A model generated the notes under the pieces. The model was not told where the DNA came from and made no database searches. It worked only from the letters and a program-made list of their open reading frames with translations. Positions 2,157 through 63,887 of a stretch of 64,000 nucleotides of DNA are shown in pieces (the first letter of the stretch is position 1; every line of letters begins with the position of its first letter). The DNA lies in the NCBI GenBank assembly GCA_020846875.1, contig JADLDB010000055.1, positions 1 to 64,000 on the forward strand, in the 5' to 3' direction. A program made the translations under genes and the position numbers. Source of the DNA: Myxococcales bacterium. Its GTDB lineage: Bacteria > Myxococcota > Myxococcia > Myxococcales > Myxococcaceae.

Positions 2157-2726
2157 TCAGCGCGACGCCTGGACGATGCGGTTCACCTCGCCCAGCGCCG
2201 CGCTGCGCTGCGCCGGCTCGACGATGAAGGGCGAGAGCATTCCCCCCGGCTCGGTGTGGATGACGTGCTCGACCTTCACCCTGCCGCCTTCCTGCGGCGT
2301 GAAGGTGAAGCTGGCGTCGATTAACGGGATCCGCACGTCGCCGTTCTTCGGGGGCGGCGCGTCCTTCACGTTGGAGTGGATCTCGACCCGGCACACGCCG
2401 CCCGGGAGCTCCTTGCGGGTGCGCCGCACCACCGAGTCGCGGGGGCTGACCAGGGGCGGCTCGATGCGATCCCACGTCACCAGCTCGTTGGGCGCCTCCG
2501 ACAACACCTTGCGGGACACCACGTGCGGCTCGCCGGGCTCCACGCGGCCCGAGCCGAAGGCCCTCCCGCACAGCTCGCTCACCTTGCCGATAGTGACGGC
2601 CGTCACCCGGAACTCCTGCCAGGACGAGCCCGCCACCTTCCGCGCCTCGAGCGTGACGCCGTCCTTCTCCGACACGCGGCTGAAGTCACTCAACCCTGCC
2701 AGCACCACCAGCACCCAGGCCGTCAT
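2157..2726 (-). CDS. Exported START/SRPBCC-like protein
   Basis: Hypothetical protein of 189 aa. It opens with a short hydrophobic segment (MTAWVLVVLAGLS) that may be a signal peptide. The rest looks like the START/SRPBCC fold: alternating strands, a central TWDRIEPPL segment and a C-terminal amphipathic helix (EPAQRSAALGEVNRIV). Such domains bind lipids or other hydrophobic ligands in a deep pocket; the ligand here is unknown. The ATG at 2726 is chosen because a strong AGGGAGGG ribosome-binding site lies about 7 bases upstream, although the frame stays open further. It is divergent from the TetR gene at 2887 and upstream of the Cax antiporter on the same strand. Confidence 0.65.
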   Translation of the reverse strand: MTAWVLVVLAGLSDFSRVSEKDGVTLEARKVAGSSWQEFRVTAVTIGKVSELCGRAFGSGRVEPGEPHVVSRKVLSEAPNELVTWDRIEPPLVSPRDSVVRRTRKELPGGVCRVEIHSNVKDAPPPKNGDVRIPLIDASFTFTPQEGGRVKVEHVIHTEPGGMLSPFIVEPAQRSAALGEVNRIVQASR

Positions 2727-2886
2727 CGCGCCGCCCTCCCTGCCGGGGCCTTCTGTCTGTCGATGCCCGTGCTCATGTGTCCGCCGCCTCGCCGGACCAG
2801 GAAGCCCAGGCGCCCCTGTTGCCAGCCCGGGAAGAATAGCGAGTAAACCTTCACATTTTCGACTCACGTTCGGGTTTGATGGGCGC

Positions 2887-3555
2887 ATGGCGACCCAGCG
2901 GCGCGTCACCCCTCGGAAGCGGCCCTCTCAGGGGCGCTCGAAGGCCACGGTGGAGGCGATCGTGCAGGCCACGGCTCGCGTTCTCTTGAAGGACGGCTAC
3001 GAGGCCTGCACCACCAACCGGGTGGCCGAGACGGCGGGGGTGAGCATCGGCTCGGTGTACCAGTACTTCCCCAACAAGGAGTCGCTGGTGGTGGCGGTGA
3101 TGGAAGGGCACCTCGGCCAGATGCAGGAGGCGCTGGCGCGCAGGCTGGGCGAGCTGTCCGACGCGGACCTGCCCACGGTGGTGAAGAGCATGGTGGGCGG
3201 CATGCTCGAGATGCACCGCATCCAGCCCAGGCTGCACCGGGTGCTCCTGGAGCAGGTGCCGCGGATCGGCGCCTTGAAGCGGCTCCACGAGCTCAACGAT
3301 CAATACGAGCCGCTGGTGGCCGCGTGGCTGGAAGCGCACCAGGAGCAGCTCGAGCTGCCCAACCCCGGCGCCGCCGCCTACGTGATGATCGCCGCGGTGG
3401 AGGGCGTCGTGTCGCGGGTGATGCTGGAGAAGCCAGGCTGGGTGGAGCTCGGCGTGCTCGAGCCCCAGCTCACCCGGTTGATCCTCGGCTATCTCGCGCC
3501 GCACCTGGTGCCCATCACCAGGCGAGCGCCGTCACCAGCTCCGGCCGCTCCGTGA
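2887..3555 (+). CDS. TetR/AcrR family transcriptional regulator
   Basis: DNA-binding repressor of 222 aa. The N-terminal HTH (about residues 20-66) has the standard TetR pattern, with TTNRVAETAGVSIGSVYQYF as recognition helix and turn. It follows a basic leader (RRVTPRKRPSQGRSK). The C-terminal helical domain is the ligand/dimer part and ends in a Pro/Ala-rich tail. The first ATG giving a normal TetR N-terminus is at 2887. It is divergent from the START-like gene across a 160-base AT-richer spacer, so that gene is a plausible target. Its last 41 bases overlap the 3' end of the convergent NRDE-family gene. Confidence 0.9.
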   Translation: MATQRRVTPRKRPSQGRSKATVEAIVQATARVLLKDGYEACTTNRVAETAGVSIGSVYQYFPNKESLVVAVMEGHLGQMQEALARRLGELSDADLPTVVKSMVGGMLEMHRIQPRLHRVLLEQVPRIGALKRLHELNDQYEPLVAAWLEAHQEQLELPNPGAAAYVMIAAVEGVVSRVMLEKPGWVELGVLEPQLTRLILGYLAPHLVPITRRAPSPAPAAP

Positions 3556-4255
3556 AGGGCGTGCGATCGGGCCGGCCGTCGGCCCAAAAGACGCGGCTGT
3601 GCGCCAGGGGCTCGCGGCGGAAGAGCACCAGCGCGCTGCGGGTGCCGTAGTTCCAGGCCGGCGCCTCCACGCACACGCCTCCCAGTGGATCGTCCGGCTT
3701 GCCGCGGGCGAGCAGCGAGAAGAGCGCCTCGGGCCGCGGCTCGGCGCCACCGGGGGACACCGCCGGCCAGGCCTCGCGGATCAACGCCTGCCGGGAGTGA
3801 TCGTCCCCGCCCAGGCTGCGCTCGGTGATGACGTGCAGACCCGGCCCGAGCGCGTCCTGCAAGAGCGCCTGCCCGTCGCTCCAGGTGACGAAGGCACCCA
3901 ACGCGTCGGCGTAGAAGAGGTGGAAGGCGTTGTACCGCGAGGGCGCGAGGTCCTTGAGCCGCGCGTGGAGCGCCCGGGCCGACTGCGCGCGCAGGGCGTC
4001 CACCACCAGCGCGCCACGGGACTCGCGGTCTGCAAACCTCTCGGCAGGGAAGCGGTTGGTGACGCCCACGAAGAGCCCGTGCACGTTGAGCCCCAGCCAG
4101 GTGCCGCCGGCCTGCTCGTCGCGCGGCGCCACGAAGGGCTCGCCCGGCCACCGCCTGGGCCCCGTCGCAGGGCGATCGAGCACCTCGTCGCGGTTGGCGG
4201 CGACGATCAACGGCGCATGCGGGTGCTGCCGAACGCTGACGATCAGGGTACACAT
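3515..4255 (-). CDS. NRDE family protein (TANGO2-like)
   Basis: Cytoplasmic protein of 246 aa in the NRDE superfamily, related to eukaryotic TANGO2. The N-terminus shows the family block MCTLIVSV followed by the diagnostic ANRDE motif (about residues 19-23), then GGTWLGLN and GVTNR. The Cys-2 N-terminus resembles N-terminal nucleophile hydrolases, but the biochemical role of bacterial members is not settled. The gene starts 6 bases from the divergent TetR gene and overlaps the preceding TetR gene at its 3' end. No clear ribosome-binding site precedes the ATG. Confidence 0.88.
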   Translation of the reverse strand: MCTLIVSVRQHPHAPLIVAANRDEVLDRPATGPRRWPGEPFVAPRDEQAGGTWLGLNVHGLFVGVTNRFPAERFADRESRGALVVDALRAQSARALHARLKDLAPSRYNAFHLFYADALGAFVTWSDGQALLQDALGPGLHVITERSLGGDDHSRQALIREAWPAVSPGGAEPRPEALFSLLARGKPDDPLGGVCVEAPAWNYGTRSALVLFRREPLAHSRVFWADGRPDRTPFTERPELVTALAW

Positions 4256-4260
4256 GAGGT

Positions 4261-4890
4261 GTGCGAGACAAGCAGCGAGAAGAGACCCGCCGGAAGCTCT
4301 ATAACGCCGCGCTCGAGGTTTTCCGACGAGACGGCGTGGACAAGTGCCGCATCGAGGACATCGCGCAGATCGCCGAGGTGAGCCGCGCGGCCTTCTACTT
4401 CCACTTCCCCACCAAGGACGACGTGCTGCTGGAGCTGTTGCTGCAGGGTGAGGCGCCGGTGTCCGCGGCGATTGAAGCCCTGAGCGAGAGGGCGCCGCTG
4501 GAGGACCTGCTCAACGCCATCACCGACTCGATGGCGGACTTCTGGCAGGGCGAGCCCCGGCTGGTGCTGGACGTCTTCTCGGTGACGCTGCGCCGCACGG
4601 CCGTGGTCACCGATCGCGAAGCGGTGGAGGTGCGCGCGCTGGTGGGCCAGCGCTTCAGGTCCGCCGCCGAGCGCGGGGAGCTCTCGCCGCTGGTGCCGTC
4701 CGAGGCCCTGGCCGACTTCTTCCTCCTGTCCTGCATGGCCACCATGGCCTCGTGGACCACCAGCGCCATCATGCCGCTCAAGGACATGCTGCGGGGCATG
4801 AGCCTGTTGTTCTTGAACGGCGCCCGCGGGGTCACCTCGCCCGCGCCGCCGCCCGCCCCGCCGCCGCCCGCGAAGGGCAAGAAGGGGTAA
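4261..4890 (+). CDS. TetR/AcrR family regulator, probable acyl-CoA metabolism
   Basis: Repressor of 209 aa with an N-terminal TetR HTH (IEDIAQIAEVSRAAFYFHF, about residues 29-47) and a helical ligand domain. It ends in a Pro/Ala/Lys-rich tail. An in-frame stop lies just upstream, so GTG at 4261 is the earliest possible start. It is followed after 5 bases by an SDR of the 2,4-dienoyl-CoA reductase type, so the two are probably cotranscribed. I infer that the regulator senses acyl-CoA-type ligands, as FadR-like TetR proteins do. The start faces the NRDE gene with only 5 bases between the start codons. Confidence 0.9.
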   Translation: MRDKQREETRRKLYNAALEVFRRDGVDKCRIEDIAQIAEVSRAAFYFHFPTKDDVLLELLLQGEAPVSAAIEALSERAPLEDLLNAITDSMADFWQGEPRLVLDVFSVTLRRTAVVTDREAVEVRALVGQRFRSAAERGELSPLVPSEALADFFLLSCMATMASWTTSAIMPLKDMLRGMSLLFLNGARGVTSPAPPPAPPPPAKGKKG

Positions 4891-4895
4891 GCGCC

Positions 4896-5681
4896 ATGTC
4901 CGTCTTCCGCGAAGGGCTGTTCCAGGGAAAGCACGTCTTCATCACCGGCGGCTCGTCCGGCATCAACCTGCAGATCGCCCACGCCTTCGGCGCGCTGGGC
5001 GCGAAGGTGGCGATCAACGGCCGCAAGCCCGACAAGCTGGACGCGGCGGTGAAGGGCCTGCGCGAGCAGGGCCTGCGGGCGGAAGGCTACGCGGCGGACG
5101 TGCGCGACTACCCGGCGCTGGACGCGGCCCTCGCCGCCGCGGTGACGGCGCTCGGCCCCCTGGACGTGCTGGTGTGCGGGGCGGCCGGCAACTTCCCCGC
5201 GCCCGCGGTGGCCATGTCCTCCAACGGCTTCAAGGCGGTGATGGACATCGATCTGCTGGGCAGCTTCAACGCCTGCCGCGCGGCCTTCGAGAAGCTGAAG
5301 AAGCCGGGCGCCGCGGTGATCGCCATCTCCGCGCCCCAGGCCGGCCACCCGTACATGCTGCAGGCCCACGTCTGCGCGGCGAAGGCCGGCGTGGACATGC
5401 TGGTGAAGTCGCTGGCGCTGGAGTGGGGCGGCGCGGGCGTGCGGGTCAACTCCATCTGGCCCGGGCCCATCGACGACACCGAAGGGATGGCGCGCCTGGC
5501 CGGCGATCCCGAGACGAAGCGGAAGGTCGAGCAGGCCATGCCGCTGCAGCGCTTCGGCACCAAAGACGAGGTGGCCCAGTTGGCCGTCTTCCTCGCCTCC
5601 GACGCGGCCCGCTACTGCACCGGCGGCGTCTACCCCGTGGACGGTGGGATGAGCCTGGTGGGCAACGCGCTGATGTTCTGA
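4896..5681 (+). CDS. SDR oxidoreductase, 2,4-dienoyl-CoA reductase type
   Basis: Short-chain dehydrogenase of 261 aa, cytoplasmic and NADP(H)-dependent. The Rossmann motif is TGGSSGI near residue 17, and CGAAGNF corresponds to the NAG motif. The usual YxxxK catalytic motif is replaced: the Lys is present in CAAKAGVDML but the Tyr is not. Loss of the Tyr with retained Lys matches peroxisomal-type 2,4-dienoyl-CoA reductases, which reduce dienoyl-CoA intermediates during oxidation of unsaturated fatty acids. The C-terminus ends with the family-typical VDGGMSLVGN. An AAGGGG ribosome-binding site precedes the ATG. It follows the TetR gene after 5 bases. Confidence 0.88.
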   Translation: MSVFREGLFQGKHVFITGGSSGINLQIAHAFGALGAKVAINGRKPDKLDAAVKGLREQGLRAEGYAADVRDYPALDAALAAAVTALGPLDVLVCGAAGNFPAPAVAMSSNGFKAVMDIDLLGSFNACRAAFEKLKKPGAAVIAISAPQAGHPYMLQAHVCAAKAGVDMLVKSLALEWGGAGVRVNSIWPGPIDDTEGMARLAGDPETKRKVEQAMPLQRFGTKDEVAQLAVFLASDAARYCTGGVYPVDGGMSLVGNALMF

Positions 5682-50392: not shown

Positions 50393-52849
50393 TCAGCGGT
50401 CCAGCTGCTTCTGCAGCGACGCGATGAAGTGCTCCAGGGCCGCGCCGCGCGCCGCCGCGTCGGCCTCCGGCGCGTCCCACGCCAGCGCGAAGTCGAACAC
50501 CGCGCGCGGCCCCGGCTGCTCCAGCTTCCCGCTGGTGACGGCGCGCGCGAAGCCGGCGGACCGCAGCCAGGGCACCTCCTCCAGCTTGCCCCGCGCGGCC
50601 CGGGCGGCGATCAGCGCGTCCCCCGGCCGGCCCAGCATCGCCGCGGCCAGCGCCCGGAAGACGAGCGCGCCGCCGGTGCCCTCCGTGTCGGGGAGCCGGG
50701 CGAGGCGAATCGCCTCCTCGTCCTCCCCGGCAAGGAAGGCGACCGCCGGCCTCAGCGCCCCCAGCTCGCCCAGCGCGCCGTGCTGCTCGAGCAGCCGGAG
50801 GCGCTCCCACGCGTCACGGTAGCGCCCGAGGTGCACGTCGGCCCGCACCACCAGCGGGGAGGCGCTGATCGACTCCGGGCGCCGCTCCAGCAACTGCAGG
50901 CCGATGGACCGCGCCTCCTCGAAGGCCTCCCTCGCCCTCGCCGGCTCGCCTTCGTCCTCGGCGATGATTCCCGCTTCCACCAGCAGCGCCACCAGCGCCT
51001 GGCGCGCGGCGTCCGAGTCAGGCTCCCGCTCCAGCGCAGCGCGCACCAGGGCGAGCGCCTCGGTCACCAGTTGGTGGCGCTCGACGTGAGGCTCCACGCC
51101 CGCCCGGAAGGCGAGCAACGCCAACGTCCGCGCCTGGGACAGCGACGCCTCGACGTCGCCGGGCGCGCCGGCCATGGCCTTCGCTCCCCGCTCGACCGCG
51201 CGCCGCAGCAGCGGCTCCCGCTCCCCGACGTCGACCAGCTGGGCCAGCTCGCGGTACGCCACCGCCGCGGACAGGTACGCGTCGGCCCGCGCGGGCTCCT
51301 TCTCGAGCGCGCGCTCGGCGTCGGCCAGCCCCTGCTCCACCAAAGCCCGCCGGCGGGAGTCGCCGTACAGCGCCATCAGCCGAGCCTCCGCCAGCCGCGT
51401 GCGGGACGCCAGCACCAGGTGCTCGGCGGAGGGCTCAGCGGCCACCAGGCTCTGGACCAGGCGCCTCGCCAACGCCAGGGCATGATCCGCGTCGTCCCTG
51501 CGCCCCAGCTCCAGCGCCACGTCGGCCAGCCGAAGCATCGCCGCCAGCACCCGCCGGCGCTCCTCGGCTGGCGCGCGATCGAGCTCGGTGGTGCGCTCGT
51601 AGTGGGCCACCGCGGCGCTGGTCACCTCGTTGACCAGCCTCTCCACGCCCGGTACCGCCACCAGGCGCGTGGCCACGTCGTCCAGGAAGCGCTGGGCGAA
51701 GCGCCGCGCTTGATCACGCTCCTCGCGCACCTGGCCCTGCGCCACCACCCCGGCCGCCACCAGGAAGACGAAGAGCCCCGCGGTGGCCAGCGTGAAGGTC
51801 CGGTTGCGGGCGACGAAGCGGCGCAGGAGCTCGACCGCCGAGTAGCGGTACGACGCCACCCGACGCCCTTCGACGAAGGCCGACAGCTCGCGGACCAGGG
51901 CGTCTACCGAGTCGAGCCCGCCTTCCTGCGGCGGCAGCCGCGTGCGCCGGACGATGGCCAGCAGCTCGCGCGGGGCGTCTGAGGGAGGTCCCCCCGAGCC
52001 GCCGGCCACCAGCGCGCCCAGCACGTCGCCCAGGCACTTGAGATCCACGCGCCGCTCTTCGCTGCGCAGCTCGCCCCGGCGCGCGCGGCCCCACTCCAGC
52101 ACGTAGACCTCGCCGAAGCGGCCCAGCATCACGTGGTCCGAGGTGAGATCGCGGTGCACCACCCCTTCCTGGTGGGCCGCCGCGATGCAGCGGCAGGCGA
52201 CCAGGAAGGCCGGGACCAGGGCCAGGCGCTCGAAGGTGGTGCGCGACTCGCGGATCACCTGGGTGAGGCTGCGCCCCGAGATACGCTGCATCGTGTAGTA
52301 GGCAGAGCCGGTGGCGCGCCGGCCCAGCTCGTACACCGGCACCACCGCGGGGTGGTCGAGGTGCCCGGTCAGCCGCGCTTCGTCGAACAGCGCCTGCTCG
52401 TCGCGGCCGGCCAGCTTCACCGCCACCTCGCGCCCCAGCACCCCGTCGCTCCACAGCACCAACTGGCCCGTCTGAGTGTCGCCCAACACCGCCGGCTTGC
52501 CGTCGCCGTCCACCACCGGGGCGTAGCGGCCGGGCTGCTCGTCGGCGGCGACGCTCTCGCCCATCCGGGTGAGGGGATCCGGCGTGGGGCGGGGGCGCAG
52601 CGCACTCCTGGGCAGCAGCGCCAAGGGCTTGCGGGGATCGCCGTCCGCGTCGGAGGCTGCCCGCGCAGCCAGCCGCTCGACCAGCCGGCGCGCTCCTGCG
52701 CTCAACAGGCCCCGCCCCTCCAGCACGTCCGCCAGCGAGCGCTCTGACTGGCCGATCAATTCCCGGCTGGCGGACAGCACGTCGTCCGCGGTGCAGAAGC
52801 CGAGCTGCGCCGCCAGCACCCCGAAGAGCAGCTCGGTCGGGTGAGTCAC
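50393..52849 (-). CDS. Ser/Thr pseudokinase with membrane helix and TPR-like region
   Basis: Kinase-like protein of 818 aa, paralogous in layout to the kinase encoded just upstream. The N-terminal ~100 residues match those of that kinase. The ATP Lys (EVAVK, 145) and the HRD Asp (234) are kept. However the Gly-rich loop is lost, the catalytic-loop Asn is His239 (HRDLTSDH), the DFG Asp is Glu252 (LEWG), and the activation segment with GTxxYxSPE is absent. One transmembrane helix (about 363-383) and a TPR-like extracytoplasmic part follow. It overlaps the kinase gene by 4 bases and is probably a regulatory partner. Confidence 0.88.
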   Translation of the reverse strand: MTHPTELLFGVLAAQLGFCTADDVLSASRELIGQSERSLADVLEGRGLLSAGARRLVERLAARAASDADGDPRKPLALLPRSALRPRPTPDPLTRMGESVAADEQPGRYAPVVDGDGKPAVLGDTQTGQLVLWSDGVLGREVAVKLAGRDEQALFDEARLTGHLDHPAVVPVYELGRRATGSAYYTMQRISGRSLTQVIRESRTTFERLALVPAFLVACRCIAAAHQEGVVHRDLTSDHVMLGRFGEVYVLEWGRARRGELRSEERRVDLKCLGDVLGALVAGGSGGPPSDAPRELLAIVRRTRLPPQEGGLDSVDALVRELSAFVEGRRVASYRYSAVELLRRFVARNRTFTLATAGLFVFLVAAGVVAQGQVREERDQARRFAQRFLDDVATRLVAVPGVERLVNEVTSAAVAHYERTTELDRAPAEERRRVLAAMLRLADVALELGRRDDADHALALARRLVQSLVAAEPSAEHLVLASRTRLAEARLMALYGDSRRRALVEQGLADAERALEKEPARADAYLSAAVAYRELAQLVDVGEREPLLRRAVERGAKAMAGAPGDVEASLSQARTLALLAFRAGVEPHVERHQLVTEALALVRAALEREPDSDAARQALVALLVEAGIIAEDEGEPARAREAFEEARSIGLQLLERRPESISASPLVVRADVHLGRYRDAWERLRLLEQHGALGELGALRPAVAFLAGEDEEAIRLARLPDTEGTGGALVFRALAAAMLGRPGDALIAARAARGKLEEVPWLRSAGFARAVTSGKLEQPGPRAVFDFALAWDAPEADAAARGAALEHFIASLQKQLDR

Positions 52850-55593
52850 GGCGCGCCTCCTACGGCCCTGGTCAGCCGTTGGGTGTACTCGCGCCAGGCG
52901 GCCTCGACCTCGACCGGCCGTGGCGCGTGCTCAGGCAGCCGGGCCAGCAGCGCCTCCACGGCTCGCGCTCCTTCTCCCCCCGAAGCCGACGCCAGGCGCG
53001 CGCCAAGCAACGACGGGAACAAGGACAGCAGGCGTTCCCCGTGCAGCTCGGTCGCCTCACGCGCCGCGGCGGCCGCCTCCTCGGTCCTGCCCGCCAGGGC
53101 GTGAGAGAGGCTCTCCAGCGCCAGGGCAGCACCGCGGGTAGAGCCGGTCACCTGGGCTCCGCGAGCCAGGACCACGTCGTCGTGGCCGGCCTCCAACGCC
53201 GCCTCGAGGTAGACCTGGACGAACTCTGCGCCCAGACCCAGGGCGTCGAGGCGTTGGGCGTAGTCCCAGGCGCGGTGCGGGTCTCCTTCCTGTAGGGCGA
53301 GCCACACCAGGTCGTAGAGCACCGAAGAGTCGGTGGGGGCGAGGACGAGCAGCTCGTCCCCCAGCCGGCGCGCCTCGGCCAGGAGCGCCAGGCGACGCTC
53401 GGGCTGACTCGCGGCGAGGTAGGGCGCCAACGTCCGCAGACCGGTCAACTGCGAGCGCTTGAGGCGGGTGGAGTCGCGCGTGCGCCGGGCGTCCCGCAGC
53501 AGCGTCACCACCCGCTCCAGGGCGGCGATGGCCTTCGGCCGCTCGTCCCGCGCGTCGAGCAGCCAGCCCAGCAGGAGCGTGTCGTCGGCGAGCTCGCTCT
53601 GGGCCACCACGTCGCCGGGGGCCAGGGCGACGCGCGCCTCCCCCAGGGCCACGGCCCGCTGACCGGCGGTGAAGGCCTCGTCGAGGCGCTGGGCATTGCC
53701 GAGCAGCACGGCCAGGCGGGACTCGAGCAGCTGGGGCGCCGCGAGGCGCTCCGCGGTCGGGGGCACGGCCGCCGCCACGTGGCTGGCCAGCGCCCGCAGC
53801 TCGAGCAGCCCGTCGAGGGCTTGTTGCTCGCGCCCCTCGTCCAGCGCCAAATCCAGGGCGCGGATGCGGTGCAGCACGCGGCGCGCCTCCACGTCGGCGT
53901 CGGCGGGGAGCTGGGCCTCGAGGGGGGTGAGCGCGCGGTCGGCCTCGCGGAGCGCCGCGGCCGCGTCCCGGCCCCGGCCCGTCGCCCAGCGGGTGCTGGC
54001 CACGTCCAACCACACGTCCACCAGCAGCAGGCGATCGTCCCGCGGCCCCGACTCGAGATCGAGGTTGGCCGCGTAGACCTCCAGCGCCGAGCGGGACAGT
54101 TGGTCCAGCACCGCGGCAGACTGGGTGGAGCGCTTGAGCTCTTCCCGCACGTCCTTGAGGAAGAAGGTGGCCATGGCCCGCGCCTCGTCGCGCTCGCGGC
54201 GCACCCTCACCGCGGTGACGGCGGCCAGCGCCACCAGGCCGGCCAGCGCGGCCACCGCCACGCCGGACAGGGCGCGGTGCCGCTTCAGGAGGCGGCGGAG
54301 CACCACCTGGGGTGTGTACTCGTAGGCGCTCACCCGCTGGCCGGACAGCCAGGCCTCGAGATCCTTCGCCATCGCCTCGGCGTCCTCGTAGCGATCTTCC
54401 TTCTTCCGCTCGAGCGCCCGGTCGCAGATCGCCGCCAGCTCGGGGGGCGCGTCGGGGCATACGCTGGCCACCTTCGGCGCGCTCTGGCTACGCACGTCCG
54501 CCAGCACGTCCCAGGGGCTCGCGCCGACGAAGGGCGCGCGGCCGCACAGCACCTCGAAGAGCAGCGCGCCCAGGCCCCACACGTCGCTCTTCGCGTCGAT
54601 CTGCTCGCGCTCGCCCCAGGCCTGCTCGGGGGACATGTAGGAAGGCGTGCCCACTGGGCCGGCGTCGGAGCCGCTGGTGAGATCGGGCGCGAGGGAGATG
54701 GGGCGCTCGGACGGCTCGCGGTGGCCCAGCACGCGAGCCAGCCCCCAGTCCATGACGAAGGTCTCGCCGCGCATTCCGAGCATCACGTTCTGCGGCTTCA
54801 AGTCCCGGTGAATGACGCCCCGGTGGTGCGCCGCGGCGACGGCCCGGCAGACGGTGAGGAGATCGGGCACGAAGGCCAGGCGGCCTTCCAGCGAGCCGGC
54901 GTCGGCCAGGGCCTGGGCCAGGGTGCGCCCCTTCACCTGCTGCATGGTGAAGTACAGCGTGCCGTCCTTGCGGCGGCCCAGCTCGTACACCGGCACCACG
55001 GCCGGGTGCTCGAGCTGGCCGGTGACGCGGGCCTCGCGCAGGAAGCGCGCCTCCAGCCCGTGGATGTGCAGGGTGTCGTACTTGTGGCTGGTGGTGATGT
55101 CGCGCAGCAGCTCCTTCATCGCCACCTCGCGCTGCAGCACGTGGTCCTTCACCACCAGCACCCGCCCCACGCCGCCCCGCCCCAGCTCCACCGGCCGCCC
55201 GTCGGGCCCGGTGTCCTCGGTGTAGCGGCCCCGCGCCTCGGGGGTGACGTTCTCTGGAGACTCCAGGCTGTCGAAGGACGCGTCCGGCCCGCTCGCCCCG
55301 CGCCGCAGCGTGGCCGACAGGCTGGACAGGCTGTCCTGCACGCGCGGGGGAAGGCTCTTCAACGTCGCCTGGGCGTCGCCCGAGTTGAGGGCCAGCGCTT
55401 CGTCCACCAGTCCCTCGAGCAACCGCTGTGAGGCCGCGTCCAGCGCGCCGCTGGCCACCAGCTCGTCGCTCAGGCGCGTGGCGGAGCCGCGCTTCGACAC
55501 CCACGCGGTGCCCACGTGGAGAATGGCGTCGGCGGTGGCCAGCCCGAGCTGCTGGGCGAAGAGCGCGCAGAGGAGATCGCGATCGCCCGTCAC
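52846..55593 (-). CDS. Ser/Thr protein kinase with TPR-like extracytoplasmic region
   Basis: Active-looking Hanks kinase of 915 aa. After an N-terminal ~120-residue helical domain, the kinase core has LGRGGVGRV, Lys160 (VAMK), Asp264 (HRDLKPQN), Asp282 in a DWG variant of DFG, and GTPSYMSPEQ. One transmembrane helix (about 445-468) separates it from a long Ala/Leu/Arg-rich helical-repeat (TPR-like) region. It is in an operon with an upstream lipoprotein gene and a downstream pseudokinase, joined by 4-base overlaps. Confidence 0.93.
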   Translation of the reverse strand: MTGDRDLLCALFAQQLGLATADAILHVGTAWVSKRGSATRLSDELVASGALDAASQRLLEGLVDEALALNSGDAQATLKSLPPRVQDSLSSLSATLRRGASGPDASFDSLESPENVTPEARGRYTEDTGPDGRPVELGRGGVGRVLVVKDHVLQREVAMKELLRDITTSHKYDTLHIHGLEARFLREARVTGQLEHPAVVPVYELGRRKDGTLYFTMQQVKGRTLAQALADAGSLEGRLAFVPDLLTVCRAVAAAHHRGVIHRDLKPQNVMLGMRGETFVMDWGLARVLGHREPSERPISLAPDLTSGSDAGPVGTPSYMSPEQAWGEREQIDAKSDVWGLGALLFEVLCGRAPFVGASPWDVLADVRSQSAPKVASVCPDAPPELAAICDRALERKKEDRYEDAEAMAKDLEAWLSGQRVSAYEYTPQVVLRRLLKRHRALSGVAVAALAGLVALAAVTAVRVRRERDEARAMATFFLKDVREELKRSTQSAAVLDQLSRSALEVYAANLDLESGPRDDRLLLVDVWLDVASTRWATGRGRDAAAALREADRALTPLEAQLPADADVEARRVLHRIRALDLALDEGREQQALDGLLELRALASHVAAAVPPTAERLAAPQLLESRLAVLLGNAQRLDEAFTAGQRAVALGEARVALAPGDVVAQSELADDTLLLGWLLDARDERPKAIAALERVVTLLRDARRTRDSTRLKRSQLTGLRTLAPYLAASQPERRLALLAEARRLGDELLVLAPTDSSVLYDLVWLALQEGDPHRAWDYAQRLDALGLGAEFVQVYLEAALEAGHDDVVLARGAQVTGSTRGAALALESLSHALAGRTEEAAAAAREATELHGERLLSLFPSLLGARLASASGGEGARAVEALLARLPEHAPRPVEVEAAWREYTQRLTRAVGGAP

Positions 55594-56169: not shown

Positions 56170-56763
56170 ATGGAACCCCGGGTCCTGACTTCTCACGAGG
56201 TTGCGTCGCTGATGCAGGTCAGCCCGTCGGCGGTGCTGCGGTGGATCGACCAGGGGATGCTGCGGGCCTTCCGCACGCCGGGCGGCCACCGGCGGGTGGG
56301 GACGGCGGAGCTCTTGGAGTTCCTGCGGGCGCAGAGGATGCCGGTGCCCCGGGCGCTGGAGGCCCCGCGGTTGCGCCTGTTGGTGATCGACGACGAGCCA
56401 GGCTTCCTGCGCTCCCTGGGTGAGTCCCTGCGGCGGGCCGATCCCCGCCTCGACGTGGAGCTGGCGGAGAGCGCGGTGGACGGGCTCATCAAGATCGGCC
56501 TCAAGCGGCCGGACGTGGTGCTGCTCGACGCCTACATGCCGGGGCTGGAGGGGCCCGAGACCTGCCGGCGGATCAAGTCCGAGCCCCAGACGGCGCACAT
56601 CGCGGTGCTGGCGATGAGCGGGCGGCGCTCGGACGAGTTGATCGCGCGCTTCGAGAAGGCGGGGGCGGCCGCCTTCCTTCCCAAGCCGCTCAAGACGACG
56701 GCGATCATCGAGCAGCTTCAGCTGCTGGGACTCCTCGCGCGGGAGAACGCGCCAGGGCCCTGA
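56170..56763 (+). CDS. HTH (MerR/excisionase-like) and receiver fusion regulator
   Basis: DNA-binding regulator of 197 aa. The N-terminal HTH (about 5-50, LTSHEVASLMQVSPSAVLRW then GGHRRV) is of the BldC/excisionase type, and the C-terminal receiver (68-185) has IDDEP, phospho-acceptor Asp120 (VVLLDAYMP) and Lys in FLPKPLK. Most response regulators have the reverse order. It lies between the lipoprotein/kinase operon and the PilZ operon and points toward the latter, which starts 59 bases downstream. Confidence 0.9.
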   Translation: MEPRVLTSHEVASLMQVSPSAVLRWIDQGMLRAFRTPGGHRRVGTAELLEFLRAQRMPVPRALEAPRLRLLVIDDEPGFLRSLGESLRRADPRLDVELAESAVDGLIKIGLKRPDVVLLDAYMPGLEGPETCRRIKSEPQTAHIAVLAMSGRRSDELIARFEKAGAAAFLPKPLKTTAIIEQLQLLGLLARENAPGP

Positions 56764-56822: not shown

Positions 56823-59177
56823 ATGTCGTCTCGTCCAGTCCTGATCATCCACTCGGATCCGCGGCGGAGAACCGAGCTCAAGGCGCTCCTCGCCGAGCGT
56901 GAGGTGCTGGAGGCGGAGAGCCGGGCCCAGGCGGTGCCGCTGCTGGCGTCGGGGGCGCTGTCGCTGGTGTTGTCCCAGGCCCTGGAGTTCCGCCGCCTGC
57001 TGCGCGATCTCGAGCGCCACACCCCGGGCACGCCCCGCGCGGTGCTGTGCCCGGATGACCCCGAGGCGCTGCGGCAACTGGCCGAGCTGGCCAGCGAGGG
57101 CTACGAGTTCGCCACCATCCCCGAGCACGCTCCGGAGACGGTCAAGCAGCTGATGAACCCCCGCAGCTCGGTAAGGCTCGTTCCGGTCCGGCCGCTCAAG
57201 GCGAGCTTCCTGGTGGGCGAGGTGGACTACCTGGCGGACGTGGTGGAGCTGAGCAACGACGGGCTGGGCCTGGCGCTGCCCGCGGGGACACCGGTCGAAG
57301 GGCTGACCCCTGGCCGGAGCCTGGCGCGTGCGACGGTCGTCTGCGAGGCCAGGGTGGTCGTGGAGCACAGGACGTGGGCGGTGCGCACCCTTCGCCGCGA
57401 GCCAGGTGGCGCGGGACGGCTCCACCTCGGGGTGACCATCGAGCCGCTCCCGGCGGAGCAGTCCGGGCGCCCGGCGGTGCGGCTGCACGACGAGGTGAAG
57501 ATCCGCGGGCTGGTGCGGCGGGCGATCAACCGGCGAGCGCGCTTCGTCTTGCACCGGTCCGACGGCTCAGGGTGGCGTGAGTACACCGAGGCCGCGCTCG
57601 ACGCCTCGGGCCGGCTGGTGCTGGGGCGACCGCGCCCCGGGCACGCTTTCGGCGCGGGGGAGATCGCCTTGTTGTCCTTCGAGCTGTTGGGGAGCCAGGT
57701 GGAGGCGGCGACGGCGGTGCTGGAGGCCGATGACACCCGCGCGGTGGTCTCCCTGCCCCGCTCGGCGCGCCGGAGGGAGCGGCGCGAGGCCCTGCGGATC
57801 CGCCTGGGAGAGCGGCCCGGCGCCACCATCACCCTGCACCAGCCTCTGAGCGGGAAGATCCTCACCCGCCCGCTGCTCGACCTGCACCCGATGGGCACCT
57901 CCATCGAGCTGGACGCCTCGAAGGACGCGCTGCCTTGCGGCCTGGTGCTGCCCGACGTGGAGCTGGAGCTGTTCGGGCGGCGCTGCCGCTGCGCCGCGGT
58001 GGTGCGGACCAACGTCGCGCTGAGCGACGACGGGCGCTGGCGGCGGGTGGGGCTGCGCCTGTTGGCCCCAAGCGACGCCGACCGGCAGCTCCTCGTCGAC
58101 GCGTGGTTGCTGGAGTTGGTGCCCGACGTGGCCTGCGGCTCGCGCTTCGGGTTTGAAGCGCTGTGGGAGCTGTTCCGCCACGAAGGCGTGCGCTTCCCCG
58201 ACTACCCGCTCGACGCAGCACAGACCGTGGAGACGCTGGGCGCCGCCCACCAGAAGATGGGCGACGGCCGGCACGGGCTGGGGAAGTCCTTCGTGTTTCA
58301 GGAAGACGGCCTGATCCTCGGACACGCGTCCGGGCTGCGAACCCACTCGAAGACCTGGCTGTCTCAGCACCTCGCCGTCCGCAGCGGCTACCACCGGCAG
58401 ACCCACATCTCCCAGGCGCTGGTGAACTTGTCCTTCGACTACGGCGAGGCGCTGGGCGACGTGGAGTACCTCCGGGGGTTGTGGAGGACTTCCAATCGTT
58501 GGACCTCTCGCGTGTACGGCGCCGCCACCTCACGGCTCATCCGCCCTGGCCTGTCGTACCTGGCTTCCTTCACGCCCATGCGGGCCACCGTCTCGCAGCC
58601 TCGCGGAGCGCCCACCGTCGTCGCCCACCCCTCTTCGGCCAGCGAGCGGCAGAGCCTGCTGCGGCACCTGCAGCGAAGCTGGGATCCGGTGCGCCTGCGC
58701 GCCGACGATCTGGTGGACGGCGAGCTCGAGCTGAGCACGTTGTCCCGTCGCTTCACCGAGGTCGGCCTCGAGCGCTCTCGGCACGTGGGCGTCGTTTCGG
58801 GGCCGCACGGGGTGCGCGGCTGGGTGTTGATCGAGCGAATGACGCCCGGCCTCTTCTGGGCGGAGTGGTACGACGCCTTCCGCCTGGTGCTGGCGGAGCC
58901 GTTCGCTGATGACTCCGAGCAAGTGCGCCTGGCGCTGGTCCACTACGCCCTGGCGGAGGCCCGCTCCCGGGGGCGGACCGTCACGCACTGCCTCGCCGAC
59001 GACGCCGACGTGGCGTCGCTGGAGCAGAGCGGCTTTGCCAACCTGGGCAAGGTGGTCGAGTTCTGCGCCCACCGCTCGATGAACCGGGAGATGACGGCGC
59101 AGTTGATGGCCATCTTCGAGCGGCTGGCTCGGCGCGGGCGAAGCGACGACCTCCGCGCCGAAGGGGACGACGCGTGA
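56823..59177 (+). CDS. Pseudo-receiver, PilZ-like and acyltransferase-like multidomain protein
   Basis: Cytoplasmic protein of 784 aa, preceded by GGAGGTG. Residues 1-115 have a receiver-like fold, but the phospho-Asp and the Lys positions are not recognisable, so it is a pseudo-receiver. Residues about 120-210 and 315-435 are PilZ-like; the second has RRERR, but the DxSxxG motif reads DLHPMG, with His for Ser. The last ~330 residues resemble a GNAT-type N-acyltransferase (GLILGHASGLRTHSKTW). c-di-GMP binding and acyl transfer are inferred only. It heads a four-gene operon by a GTGA overlap with the methyltransferase. Confidence 0.75.
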   Translation: MSSRPVLIIHSDPRRRTELKALLAEREVLEAESRAQAVPLLASGALSLVLSQALEFRRLLRDLERHTPGTPRAVLCPDDPEALRQLAELASEGYEFATIPEHAPETVKQLMNPRSSVRLVPVRPLKASFLVGEVDYLADVVELSNDGLGLALPAGTPVEGLTPGRSLARATVVCEARVVVEHRTWAVRTLRREPGGAGRLHLGVTIEPLPAEQSGRPAVRLHDEVKIRGLVRRAINRRARFVLHRSDGSGWREYTEAALDASGRLVLGRPRPGHAFGAGEIALLSFELLGSQVEAATAVLEADDTRAVVSLPRSARRRERREALRIRLGERPGATITLHQPLSGKILTRPLLDLHPMGTSIELDASKDALPCGLVLPDVELELFGRRCRCAAVVRTNVALSDDGRWRRVGLRLLAPSDADRQLLVDAWLLELVPDVACGSRFGFEALWELFRHEGVRFPDYPLDAAQTVETLGAAHQKMGDGRHGLGKSFVFQEDGLILGHASGLRTHSKTWLSQHLAVRSGYHRQTHISQALVNLSFDYGEALGDVEYLRGLWRTSNRWTSRVYGAATSRLIRPGLSYLASFTPMRATVSQPRGAPTVVAHPSSASERQSLLRHLQRSWDPVRLRADDLVDGELELSTLSRRFTEVGLERSRHVGVVSGPHGVRGWVLIERMTPGLFWAEWYDAFRLVLAEPFADDSEQVRLALVHYALAEARSRGRTVTHCLADDADVASLEQSGFANLGKVVEFCAHRSMNREMTAQLMAIFERLARRGRSDDLRAEGDDA

Positions 59178-59962
59178 CCTACCTGATGGAGGGACAGGCC
59201 GAAGGGCACCGGCTGCTCGCGCAGGAAGCAGCCAACCCCAGCGCCGCACGGCTGCGCCTCACCGGGTTGAAGGAAGGCCACCACGCCGCCGACATCGGCT
59301 GTGGCGCCGGGGCGGTCACCCTGGCGATGGCAGACCTCGTCGGCCCGGGCGGCGCGGTGGTCGCCGTCGATCAGAGCGACGAGCGGCTCGTGCTGGCCCA
59401 GGACCAGCTCCGGGGCGCGGCGCACGTCACCTTCGCGCGGGCTTCGCTGCCGAACACCGGGCTGCCCGGCGAGACCTTCGACTACGTCTGGTGCCAGTTC
59501 GTCCTCGAGTACCTGCGGACTCCCGCCGTCGCGCTGGCGGAGCTCCAGCGCCTCGCGAAGCCCGGTGGCCGGGTCGTGGTGTCCGAGATCGACGGCTTCG
59601 GCCTGGCCTGTTGGCCCGAGTCGCCTGTGGTGGAGGCTGGCAAGCCGATCTTCCTCCGTGCGCTCGCCTCCACGGGCTTCGACCTGTTCATCGGGCGCAA
59701 GCTCTACGGCCTGTTCCGTGAAGTGGGGCTGAGCGACGTGCGCGTCCACCTCTCGCCCTTCCACGTCACTGCTGGGTCGGCCGACGAGCAGTTGTTGGCG
59801 GACTGGCGAACGCGCTTCGACACCCTGGCGCCGGTGATGGTGCCGGCCTTCGGTCAGGAAGCGGCCTACCGGGACTTCGCGCGGGCCTACCTCGAAGTGC
59901 TGGCTGACCCTCAGGCCTTCAAGTACTCCGTCATCCTGACCGTGGAGGGGACGCGCCGATGA
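59174..59962 (+). CDS. Class I SAM-dependent methyltransferase
   Basis: Cytoplasmic methyltransferase of 262 aa starting at GTG. Motif I is AADIGCGAGAVTLAMA, then VVAVDQSDERL for the SAM ribose, FDYVWCQFVLEYL as motif IV, and a late GRKLYGLF segment. No substrate-specific motif is recognised. It sits between the PilZ/acyltransferase-like and the hybrid kinase genes with 4-base overlaps on both sides, so a functional tie to that operon is likely. Confidence 0.9.
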   Translation: MTYLMEGQAEGHRLLAQEAANPSAARLRLTGLKEGHHAADIGCGAGAVTLAMADLVGPGGAVVAVDQSDERLVLAQDQLRGAAHVTFARASLPNTGLPGETFDYVWCQFVLEYLRTPAVALAELQRLAKPGGRVVVSEIDGFGLACWPESPVVEAGKPIFLRALASTGFDLFIGRKLYGLFREVGLSDVRVHLSPFHVTAGSADEQLLADWRTRFDTLAPVMVPAFGQEAAYRDFARAYLEVLADPQAFKYSVILTVEGTRR

Positions 59963-62778
59963 CGGGAGGGGAGGCGGGGGCGGCGGCGGAGTTCCGTTGG
60001 GACACGCCGGAGCTGGGCGTGCGAGCGGTGAAGGTGCTGCTCCTCTACTTCTCGAAGACGTATGGCCGGAAGCGGCTCGAGCAGGTCTGGCGCGACGCGA
60101 AGCTGCCGCTCCCGCTCTCCCACGTCGAGGACCTGTCCAACTACATCTCTCTGGCGTTCCTCGAGCTGCTGATGAAGACGCTCCTCGACGCCTCAGGCGA
60201 TCCCCAGTTCCTGGACAAGGCCGGGCGGGCGATCGCTTCCCCCGAGGCGCTGGGCTTCGCGTACTTCATGCTCCGCGGCGTCGGCACCCCAGAGCTGGTC
60301 TACCAGAAGACGGTGGAGCTCGGGCCCACCTACAACCGCGTTGGCACCTTCCACATCGAGTCCCAGGGGAGCACCCACCTCACCCTGCGCTACTCCAGCC
60401 GGGTCCGTGAGAAGGACCACAACCTGTGCACCATACGCAAGGCCAGCTACGCGGCCTTCCCCGGGATCTGGGGCCTGCCGGACGCGACGGTCAAAGAGAC
60501 CCAGTGCCTGGTCGACGGCGCCGACTCGTGCCGCTACGAGCTCACGTGGCGCGCCCGCCCGCCGGTGGAGTGGCGGCGCTGGGTGTTCGGCCTGGCGGGG
60601 CTCGCCGCGGGCGTCGCCACCGCCACCTGGGGCCAGGCGCCTCCTCCCGTGCTGGGGGCCGCGCTGGGGGCGCTGGGCTTCTTCCTGGGCGGCTGGCTGG
60701 ACCTGCGCCGCGTCACCCGCGAGAAGGACGAGCGGCTGGGCGAGCAGACCGCCGGCCTCACCCGCTCGGTGGAGGAGCTGCAGCGACGCGCGGAAGAAAT
60801 CCACCGCGCCAACGCGGAGCTGGACCAACGGGTCGCCGATCGCACCCGCGAGCTGGAAGATGCGCTCGAGCGCCTGAGGCGCCTCGACACCATGAAGAGC
60901 GAGTTCTTCGCCAACGTGTCGCACGAGCTGCGCACGCCGCTCACGTTGATCCTCGCGCCGCTGGACGATCGCCTGCCCCACGCCGCCGCCCCTGCGGAGC
61001 GGGACCTGCTGCTGAGCATTCGCCGCAACGCGGACCGCCTGCTGCGGCTGGTGGACGATCTGCTCGACCTCTCGCGGATCGACGCCGGTCAACTGCGGCT
61101 GGACATCGTGGCGGTCGACTTCGCCGCGCTCACCCGCCAGGTGCTGGCCACCTTCCAGCGCGCCGCCGACTCGCGGCGCATCTCGCTGCTGGCCTCGGTG
61201 CCGGCCGCGACCCGCGACGTGTGGGGCGATCGCCACCGGCTGGAGTCGATCCTGGGGAACCTGCTGAGCAACGCGCTCAAGTACACGCCGGGCGGGGGCC
61301 GCGTCACCGTGTCCCTGGCGGAGACGGACGCGCAGGTGCTGCTGAAGATCACCGACACCGGCCCGGGCATCAGCCAGGAGGATCTTCCGCACCTCTTCCA
61401 GCGCTTCTACCAGGGCACCAGCGAAGGGGTCCGGCGCCGCGGAGGCATGGGCATCGGCCTGGCGCTGGCGCAGAACCTGGCCGAGCTGCACGGAGGCCGG
61501 ATCGCGGTCGAGAGCGAGCTGCGGAAAGGCTCGGCCTTCACCGTCACCCTTCCGAAGGGCCGCGCGCACTTCCGGCCCGAGGTCCTCGAGCGCCGGCGCC
61601 TGCAGATCGACGTGAAGGAAGGCCGGCGCGCCGCGGACGCCTTCGGCAACAGCACCACCCCGGTGCCCGAGCCTCACGGCGACGCCCCGGTGCTCTCGGA
61701 GGGCCGGCCGATCTCCTTCGAGGGGGGGAGGCGGCCGCGGGTGTTGGTCGTCGAGGACAACGACGAGATGCGGGACCTGCTCAGCGGGCTGCTCGCGCCC
61801 ACCTGCGAGGTGCTCCAGGCGGTGGACGGCGCCGAAGGCCTGGCGTCGGCGAAGCAGAGCCTTCCTGACCTGGTCCTGTCCGACGTGATGATGCCGGCTA
61901 TGCCCGGGACGGAGCTGGTGTACGCGCTCAAGCAGGATCCGGCGCTGCGCTCCACGCCGGTGCTGCTCCTCACCGCCCGCAGCGGCCCCGAGTCCGCGCT
62001 GGAGGGCTTCGGGTCCGGCGCCGACGACTTCATCGAGAAGCCCTTCCACCCGCGGGTGCTGCTGGCGCGGGTGGCGGCCCACCTGCAGTTGCGGGCGCTC
62101 TCTCTGCAGCTCGCCTCCCAGGCGCGGCTGGCGGCGATCGGCACCCTGGCCGCTGGCGTGGGCCACGAGGTGCGCAACCCGGTGAACGCGGTGCTCAACG
62201 GCGTGCGCGTGCTGCTCGCCCGCGAAGGAGTGAAGGACGCGGACCAGAAGCTGCTCAAGGTGGTGGAGGAAGGCGCCGGCCGCATCGAGCGGATCAGCGC
62301 GGCGCTGCTGCACCACGCCAGCCCCGGCGATCGCGGCGGGTGGCGGCCGGTCGACCTCCGCGCGGGCCTGGAGGCCACCCTGGCGCTGATGCAGCACGAG
62401 CTGGCGCAGGTGAAGGTGGTGCGCGAGGGCGCTGCGCAGCCGCGGGTGGTAGCGCCGGCGGCCGAGCTGAACCAGGTCTTCTTGAACCTCATCGACAACG
62501 CGCGCAAGGCCGGGGCCAGGACGGTGTGGCTCAAGGTGGACAGCCAGGGCGGCCGGGCGAAGGTGTGCGTGGAAGACGACGGGCCGGGCGTACCGGCGGA
62601 GATCGTCGCGCGCCTCTTCGTGCCCTTCGCGACCAGCCGGGCCCCGGGGGAAGGCACCGGGCTGGGCCTGTTCATCGCGGCGGAGTCGGTGAAGCGCTTT
62701 GGGGGTACGCTCACCTACGCGCCCCGGCCGGGCGGGGGCGCCGCCTTCACCGTCGATCTTCCTCTGGAGAAGCCTTGA
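59959..62778 (+). CDS. V4R-like sensor, histidine kinase, receiver and second histidine kinase in one protein
   Basis: Membrane protein of 939 aa. Residues about 1-205 look like a V4R/heme-NO-type ligand domain; it ends in the typical CLVDGADSCRYELTW. Two hydrophobic helices (about 212-255) and a coiled coil follow. The first kinase core has His322 (FANVSHELRTP) and NLLSNALKY; then a receiver with Asp642 (VLSDVMMP); then a second HisKA with His736 (GVGHEVRNP) and NLIDNARKAG, GTGLGLFIA. It overlaps the methyltransferase (ATGA) and the REC-HK gene (TTGA). Confidence 0.9.
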   Translation: MTGGEAGAAAEFRWDTPELGVRAVKVLLLYFSKTYGRKRLEQVWRDAKLPLPLSHVEDLSNYISLAFLELLMKTLLDASGDPQFLDKAGRAIASPEALGFAYFMLRGVGTPELVYQKTVELGPTYNRVGTFHIESQGSTHLTLRYSSRVREKDHNLCTIRKASYAAFPGIWGLPDATVKETQCLVDGADSCRYELTWRARPPVEWRRWVFGLAGLAAGVATATWGQAPPPVLGAALGALGFFLGGWLDLRRVTREKDERLGEQTAGLTRSVEELQRRAEEIHRANAELDQRVADRTRELEDALERLRRLDTMKSEFFANVSHELRTPLTLILAPLDDRLPHAAAPAERDLLLSIRRNADRLLRLVDDLLDLSRIDAGQLRLDIVAVDFAALTRQVLATFQRAADSRRISLLASVPAATRDVWGDRHRLESILGNLLSNALKYTPGGGRVTVSLAETDAQVLLKITDTGPGISQEDLPHLFQRFYQGTSEGVRRRGGMGIGLALAQNLAELHGGRIAVESELRKGSAFTVTLPKGRAHFRPEVLERRRLQIDVKEGRRAADAFGNSTTPVPEPHGDAPVLSEGRPISFEGGRRPRVLVVEDNDEMRDLLSGLLAPTCEVLQAVDGAEGLASAKQSLPDLVLSDVMMPAMPGTELVYALKQDPALRSTPVLLLTARSGPESALEGFGSGADDFIEKPFHPRVLLARVAAHLQLRALSLQLASQARLAAIGTLAAGVGHEVRNPVNAVLNGVRVLLAREGVKDADQKLLKVVEEGAGRIERISAALLHHASPGDRGGWRPVDLRAGLEATLALMQHELAQVKVVREGAAQPRVVAPAAELNQVFLNLIDNARKAGARTVWLKVDSQGGRAKVCVEDDGPGVPAEIVARLFVPFATSRAPGEGTGLGLFIAAESVKRFGGTLTYAPRPGGGAAFTVDLPLEKP

Positions 62779-63887
62779 ATCCGTACGTGCTGTACGTCGA
62801 CGACGACTCTGCCAACCTGGTGGTCTTCCAGTCCGGGCTGAGCGGCGCGCTGCCGATCCTCACGGCCACCAGCGGCGAAGAGGCGCTCGCGCTGCTCAAG
62901 CAGCACGAGGTGGCGGTGCTGCTGGCGGATCAGCGGATGCCGGGGATGACGGGCGTGCAGTTGATGGAGAAGGTGCGCGCCGAGCACCCCGACGTGGTGC
63001 GGTTGCTCATCACCGCCTACTCGGACCTCGAGGCCTCCATCGACGCGATCAACAAGGGTAAGGTCGACGCCTACTTCAAGAAGCCGTGGGAGCCGGCAGA
63101 GCTGACGCTGGCGCTGACCCAGGCGCGCGATCGCTACATCGCGACGAAGTGGACCAGGGAGCTCGAGCGGCGGCTGGTGGCCACCGAGCGCACCTACGCC
63201 CTGGGGGTGGTGGCGGCGGGGATCGCCCACGAGCTGCGCAACCCGCTCACCTCGGTGTCGCTGTGCCTGCAGTTGGCCCGGCAGTTGTTGAAAGAGAAGC
63301 CCTTCGAGGACGAGCAGCGCCAGGCCGCCGACCGCAACCTGGTGGACGCGACGAGGGCAGTGGAGGCGATCATCGAGATCACCGCCGCGATGGAGCTGTC
63401 CACGCGGCAGCGGGAGGTCGCCTCCATCGATCTCAAGGAGACGGTGGAGCTGGCGATCCGCTCGGTGCTGGGCGAGGTGAAGGCCCGCGGGCGCCTCGTG
63501 AAGGAGCTGAGCGAAGTGCCCCGCATCCGCGCGTCGCGCACCCAGGTGGGCCAGGTGGTGCTGAACCTGCTCATCAACGCCGCGCAGGCGCTGGACGAGG
63601 CGCGGCGCTCCACCAACGTGGTGAAGGTGAGCCTCAAGCAGGAAGGCCCGTCCATCGTGCTGAAGGTGTCGGACACCGGCGCGGGCATTCCCGAGGAGGT
63701 GCTGGGGCGCATCTTCGATCCCTTCTTCACCACCAAGCAGGACGGGGGCACCGGGCTGGGGCTGGCCATCTCCCGGCAGATCGTCAACGAGCTGGGCGGC
63801 GCGATCGACGTGGACACGGTGCCCGGGCAGGGCACGACGTTCCGGGTGCGTCTGCCAGTGCCGGAGGTAGTGGAGAGGAAGCAGTAG
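62775..63887 (+). CDS. Receiver-histidine kinase hybrid (cytoplasmic)
   Basis: Soluble protein of 370 aa from a TTG start overlapping the previous stop (TTGA). The receiver (2-115) has VDDDS, Asp52 (LLADQRMPG) and Lys in YFKKPW. The kinase core has His152 (GIAHELRNP), NLLINAAQA, DTGAGIP and GGTGLGLAISR. It may receive phosphate from the upstream hybrid kinase and pass it on. The last gene of the PilZ-methyltransferase-kinase operon. Confidence 0.92.
   Translation: MNPYVLYVDDDSANLVVFQSGLSGALPILTATSGEEALALLKQHEVAVLLADQRMPGMTGVQLMEKVRAEHPDVVRLLITAYSDLEASIDAINKGKVDAYFKKPWEPAELTLALTQARDRYIATKWTRELERRLVATERTYALGVVAAGIAHELRNPLTSVSLCLQLARQLLKEKPFEDEQRQAADRNLVDATRAVEAIIEITAAMELSTRQREVASIDLKETVELAIRSVLGEVKARGRLVKELSEVPRIRASRTQVGQVVLNLLINAAQALDEARRSTNVVKVSLKQEGPSIVLKVSDTGAGIPEEVLGRIFDPFFTTKQDGGTGLGLAISRQIVNELGGAIDVDTVPGQGTTFRVRLPVPEVVERKQ

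Follow-up and report, generated by a model that had tools for sequence, protein, structure and literature searches.

The window analyzed here is a stretch of 64,000 nucleotides from a Myxococcaceae bacterium (contig JADLDB010000055.1, forward strand), and the locus under study within it is the pixB operon in its longer five-gene form, A-B-C-D-E. Four of these genes had been recognized in the original prediction, which described open reading frames at 56823-63887 joined by four-base overlaps; both the coordinates and the overlaps (GTGA, ATGA and TTGA, joining B/C/D/E) match. The domain content then assigned to the four genes, namely a pseudo-receiver/PilZ/acyltransferase-like protein, a methyltransferase, a hybrid kinase with a V4R-like N-terminus and a REC-HK protein, was also borne out, the acyltransferase-like part as a GNAT-like C-terminus and the hybrid kinase as HK-REC-HK. 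The fifth gene, A, was absent from that description and is a member of the operon unit, ending 59 bases upstream of pixB. Its product matches the Pfam families HTH_17 (2.3e-9) and Response_reg (5.1e-20), its relatives adjoin pixB at three further loci (L041, L094 and L118) with 62-66% identity, and it is likely the transcriptional output. The genes and their features, all on the + strand, are as follows.

56170..56763, +: gene A, HTH_17/MerR-type DNA-binding domain with a canonical receiver (D120)
56823..59177, +: gene B, pixB ortholog by sequence; pseudo-receiver, two PilZ domains, tandem GNAT-like domain
56823..57158, +: pseudo-receiver domain of B, lacking the phospho-Asp
57162..57176, +: first PilZ motif of B, R114xxxR118, aligned with R121xxxR of M. 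xanthus PixB
57783..57797, +: second PilZ motif of B, R321xxxR325, aligned with R331xxxR of PixB
58116..59174, +: tandem GNAT-fold (AT) domain of B, canonical CoA motif absent from both halves
59174..59962, +: gene C, UbiE-like class I SAM methyltransferase with an intact SAM motif
59959..62778, +: gene D, V4R sensor, hydrophobic hairpin, HK1 (H322), REC (D642), HK2 (H736); LvrA-like layout
60001..60558, +: V4R/H-NOX-fold sensor domain of D, zinc-site residues C157, E180, C183 and C191
60571..60699, +: hydrophobic segment of D (hydropathy window of 1.66 centered on residue 231), which may be a membrane hairpin
62775..63887, +: gene E, REC (D52)-HK (H152), LvrB-like Rec-controlled kinase

Elsewhere in the window, at 50393-55593 on the minus strand, lie two neighboring paralogous Ser/Thr kinase-like genes with a four-base overlap. 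In the 818-aa product of one of the two, Pfam matches only an N-terminal part of the kinase domain (residues 140-261), and this protein may be a pseudokinase.

Gene B and PixB of M. xanthus

By sequence comparison, gene B is an ortholog of M. xanthus PixB (MXAN_2604), which in the available text of PMC8316039 combines a pair of PilZ domains with a GNAT-type AT domain and was mutated at R121 and R331. The homolog from M. xanthus AM003 (L092; 804 aa, read from its ATG) carries R121xxxR125 and R331xxxR335, and these motifs coincide with the published positions (PMC8316039). The window protein is about 43-45% identical to its Myxococcus homologs. Taken alone it has no Pfam match above cut-off, its PilZ match included; 13 of the 16 homologs do match PilZ (best 1.8e-15). 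The phospho-Asp column of the pseudo-receiver is occupied by S, H, T or A in most homologs. The two proteins share the paired PilZ domains with RxxxR, the AT domain and, in AM003, the downstream methyltransferase and kinase genes, whereas the N-terminal pseudo-receiver, the identities of the downstream genes and genes A and E do not appear in the available text of PMC8316039. That text does state that pixB may form an operon with two downstream genes, and in AM003 the two genes 3' of pixB encode the methyltransferase and the V4R kinase. The literature searched contained no published work under the locus tags MXAN_2603, 2605, 2606 or 2607.

PixB of M. xanthus is described, in the same available text, as an intracellular regulator that binds c-di-GMP and governs Frz-dependent reversals and development (PMC8316039), and pixB is induced more than two-fold in development (PMC8844925). 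With the motifs present and the M. xanthus protein shown to bind (PMC8316039), c-di-GMP binding is predicted for the protein encoded in the window, and the c-di-GMP control originally proposed for this locus acquires a named protein as its basis.

Most Myxococcaceae also encode, away from the operon, a second PilZ-AT protein of about 700 aa (e.g. G022:C1:40735-42123), a PixB paralog that matches the profile over positions of about 313-780 with E about 1e-45; a profile search of the window genome found none at E 1e-20. In genome G091 (L118:12653-14983, minus strand) the HTH-REC gene is immediately preceded by a second PixB-like gene, arranged in tandem.

The original prediction had seen in the C-terminal part of B an acyltransferase that could synthesize a signal, and the structural check of this idea gave a divided answer. 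The fold stood: an AlphaFold2 model of the AT domain from 16 homologs (pLDDT 87.8) retrieved tandem GNAT proteins in Foldseek (E 2.9e-12, TM about 0.5) and also N-myristoyltransferases. The canonical CoA site did not, as the motif check across the 16 homologs found no Q/RxxGxG/A pyrophosphate-binding motif in either half, the first half having RQTHIS, RHESIS, RNEHVS and similar at that place and the second having no glycine loop. Since B is PixB, a c-di-GMP regulator of reversals and development published as intracellular, a signal-making acyltransferase is not the default reading. On the model, catalytic acyltransferase activity, non-canonical acyl-CoA binding included, is possible; no active-site mutation of the AT domain is described in the available text of PMC8316039.

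Conservation of the operon

A survey of 147 genomes of the class used profiles for B, C and the V4R domain. Gene C (E below 1e-50) is present in 69 of the 147, one copy each, and in all 69 it directly precedes D in the same orientation, at most 150 bases away. It directly follows B in 66 of these; the other three are contig breaks, with B and C on separate contigs. Throughout the 147 genomes C never occurs without kinase D, and D occurs without C only in G042, where B adjoins D, and in G008, where D is alone. At locus L057, pixB and the kinase are kept without the methyltransferase. The methyltransferase and the V4R hybrid kinase are found in every searched genome of the Myxococcus-like genus (g23). 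In other parts of the phylum, no methyltransferase gene adjoins the V4R kinases.

The translational coupling is conserved as well. Among compared B-C-D loci the four-base overlap is kept at B/C in 21 of 24 and at C/D in 24 of 24, and at D/E it is kept in all four loci having E; these counts leave out L111, a more distant MAG locus that has no overlaps. The order, and mostly the overlaps too, recur in homologs at just 30-50% identity, which argues that the coupling is more than chance. Gene-order conservation was the check set by the original prediction, and the loss of order in relatives that would have counted against it was not observed.

The five-gene form A-B-C-D-E is present in the window, L041, L094 and L118, and the HTH-REC gene is conserved with the operon in relatives that also retain gene E. 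Among the loci examined, neither E nor A adjoins the operon in Myxococcus, in Corallococcus or in most of Archangium, so the wiring of the relay must differ there. In L111, C-D-E is kept and a B-like gene lies 4.7 kb upstream. The flanks of Myxococcus-type loci hold nadA and a transporter (gene names assigned by eye), and those of the window and L041 hold other genes; given these differing genomic settings, the block behaves as a unit. A sigma54 regulator was considered as a shared downstream family in Myxococcus and rejected, the sequence resembling, by eye, a POT-type peptide transporter.

Several loci show further arrangements. In L111 two adjacent B12-binding radical SAM proteins (2393-5660) separate the PixB-like gene from the methyltransferase, and this pair hints at small-molecule or lipid chemistry. 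In other families of the order (L056:198-3254 and L057:4926-7817, both minus strand) an HD-GYP-like domain replaces the second kinase of D in alignments read by eye; judged from sequence, it is likely a c-di-GMP phosphodiesterase output, again pointing to c-di-GMP. L116 (8361-9875) encodes a 504-aa protein with the same V4R-type domain and no match to the kinase parts of the operon; its genome contains the complete operon as well.

The sensor domain of kinase D

A profile search with the V4R domain against PDB sequences returned nothing up to E = 10, and fold comparison was therefore needed. An AlphaFold2 model from 15 homologs (pLDDT 91.6) matched H-NOX proteins in Foldseek (TM up to 0.73, E 1.4e-7), the phenol sensor PoxR (E 3.8e-4) and also a palmitoyl-bound TRAPP subunit. 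Of the 15 homologs, 11 match Arabinose_bd in Pfam, 10 match V4R and one matches HNOB (0.0045), the best V4R score, 23.6 bits, staying below the gathering score of 31. The V4R family has three Cys and one Glu (PMC10715001); among the 15 D homologs, 14 retain the cysteines C157, C183 and C191, the exception being L056, which is without all three, and E180 is kept in 15 of 15. Successive cysteines are 26 and 8 residues apart, the same spacing as in the DmpR zinc ligands Cys151, Cys177 and Cys185 (PMC7264223), whereas the Glu offset differs from that of DmpR Glu172. The V4R-like N-terminus seen earlier thus gains an H-NOX/V4R/TRAPP fold by model together with the Cys-Glu-Cys-Cys residues, and the modeled sensor is a V4R-type domain with a putative zinc site.

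The domain resembles the MopR/PoxR/DmpR sensors and the kinase PcrS (PMC7264223, PMC10715001) in fold, in the three-Cys/one-Glu residues and in Cys spacing, but differs from them in having neither the phenol-anchoring His nor the Trp and in being joined to a hydrophobic segment and a double kinase. Phenol sensing was rejected for the missing His/Trp pair, since no His column is conserved and the region contains no Trp. The hydrophobic segment, residues 205-247 between sensor and kinase, had no place in the original prediction; it is G/A/L-rich in homologs and is probably a membrane segment, judging from its composition and hydropathy. D shares its overall fold with H-NOX but has no proximal His and no full YxSxR: column conservation across the 15 homologs showed no conserved histidine, and the motif is reduced to YxS with the Arg missing. 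A standard heme domain was rejected on these grounds, and the heme ligand that had been entertained for the V4R-type domain is unlikely. The alignment to the H-NOX profile was weak, with a probability of 13% and one row badly aligned, and the assignment relies instead on the fold search and column conservation.

The methyltransferase and the kinases

The product of gene C matches class I SAM methyltransferases in Pfam (5e-19). It resembles small-molecule methyltransferases of the UbiE, phosphoethanolamine and arsenite types, was placed in the broad UbiE/Methyltransf_11 group without any call of specificity, and has no match to CheR. The methyltransferase that the original prediction placed beside the sensor has an intact SAM site and, across the 147 genomes, a strict association with the kinase. 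Given these two properties and its likeness to small-molecule enzymes, our leading inference from the sequences is that C makes, modifies or removes a small molecule read by D.

Pfam HisKA, HATPase and REC matches define D as HK-REC-HK (H-box histidines H322 and H736, receiver Asp D642) and E as REC-HK (D52 and H152). The best NCBIfam match of D is LvrA (1.1e-99; score 334.6 of a 1200 cut-off), and E matches LvrB (8.2e-27; 94.3 of 500), both scores lying far below the family cut-offs. As in LvrA/LvrB of Leptospira (PMC5863495, PMC13269768), an HK-REC-HK protein stands beside a REC-HK protein with His and Asp intact; in that system LvrA passes phosphate to LvrB (PMC5863495) and Rec phosphorylation activates the LvrB kinase (PMC13269768). 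Unlike LvrA, D has V4R and a hydrophobic segment in the place of PAS, and the window operon adds the methyltransferase and PixB and has the HTH-REC protein A in place of LvrC.

Discussion

Starting from the observed orthology of B, the V4R fold and zinc-site residues of D, the relay architecture and the conserved order and coupling, we think it probable that the pixB operon combines a V4R-sensing D/E relay with PixB as a c-di-GMP effector arm and with C acting on the ligand of D. The V4R family binds small oily molecules, and V4R/TRAPP folds hold hydrophobic ligands. In the proposed circuit, D would bind a small, probably hydrophobic ligand through its zinc-site V4R domain; the ligand would set HK1, and phosphate would pass via the REC and HK2 of D to the REC-HK protein E, a direction that we infer. 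From E the phosphate would go to a receiver, for which the HTH-REC protein A is the obvious candidate end point. PixB would be the c-di-GMP-responsive arm setting reversal frequency and development, as in M. xanthus, and C would most likely make, modify or remove the molecule sensed by D. Against this reading, PixB phenotypes are explicable without any diffusible signal, and there are the B-D pair of G042, the lone D of G008 and the distant V4R kinases with no methyltransferase.

The original prediction of a signal-synthesis-plus-perception unit survives in part: the perceiving half is likely, production of the signal by C possible and its production by an acyltransferase doubtful. That one signal is both made and sensed by genes of the operon is plausible. 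A precedent is Ralstonia phcBSRQ (PMC8578825, PMC11960443), in which, according to the available texts, methyltransferase, sensor kinase and Rec-HK share one operon and PhcB makes 3-OH MAME/PAME, which PhcS senses, in a methyl-ester quorum-sensing system (PMC8578825). By that model C would methylate a fatty acid or similar, and the ester would diffuse and be bound by the V4R domain of D. The phcB-phcS-phcR order (PMC8578825), the hydrophobic ligands accommodated by V4R/TRAPP folds and the constant company of C and D all speak for it, but C has no call beyond its broad group, the Rec-HK protein E is missing from most relatives and PixB is intracellular in published work; moreover, phcBSRQ has no PixB and a V4R domain is not reported for PhcS in the available texts. 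The phcBSR order supports synthesis and perception by analogy only, and quorum sensing of this kind seems to us a possible but doubtful account. A fully specified version, a c-di-GMP-gated circuit in which C would make a hydrophobic methylated signal, a membrane zinc V4R kinase would read it and PixB would couple it to reversals and fruiting, is unlikely as a whole.

It is rather improbable that B, C and D are co-transcribed for common regulation only, with C an independent metabolic step. Relatives that are without C or retain D alone, and distant V4R kinases that have no methyltransferase neighbor, would fit this, but C occurs solely with D across two genomic settings (the nadA side in Myxococcus-type loci, another here) and the translational overlaps are conserved. 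We give still less weight to methylation of an operon protein, D or B, by C, which would tune the kinase as RsbM does in methylating the hybrid kinase RsbK of Bacillus cereus (as reported in the available text of PMC4574943); the tight coupling of C and D and the RsbM-RsbK precedent favor it, but C resembles small-molecule enzymes and does not match CheR. A heme-based NO/O2 sensor (H-NOX) as the input of D, with C unrelated to the ligand, is highly improbable, for although H-NOX proteins are the top fold matches and one homolog matches HNOB, the conserved histidine and the Arg of YxSxR are gone and the zinc-site Cys/Glu set is present instead.

The conserved module is thus a characterized protein, PixB, in a new combination of partners, in which an LvrA/LvrB-type relay gains an input domain from a ligand-binding class of known structure. 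PixB is required for fruiting bodies in M. xanthus, and the conserved operon names two candidate partners for it, the methyltransferase and the V4R hybrid kinase. Both are present in all the g23 genomes searched, so that the input, substrate and partners of PixB can be probed in a standard laboratory strain.
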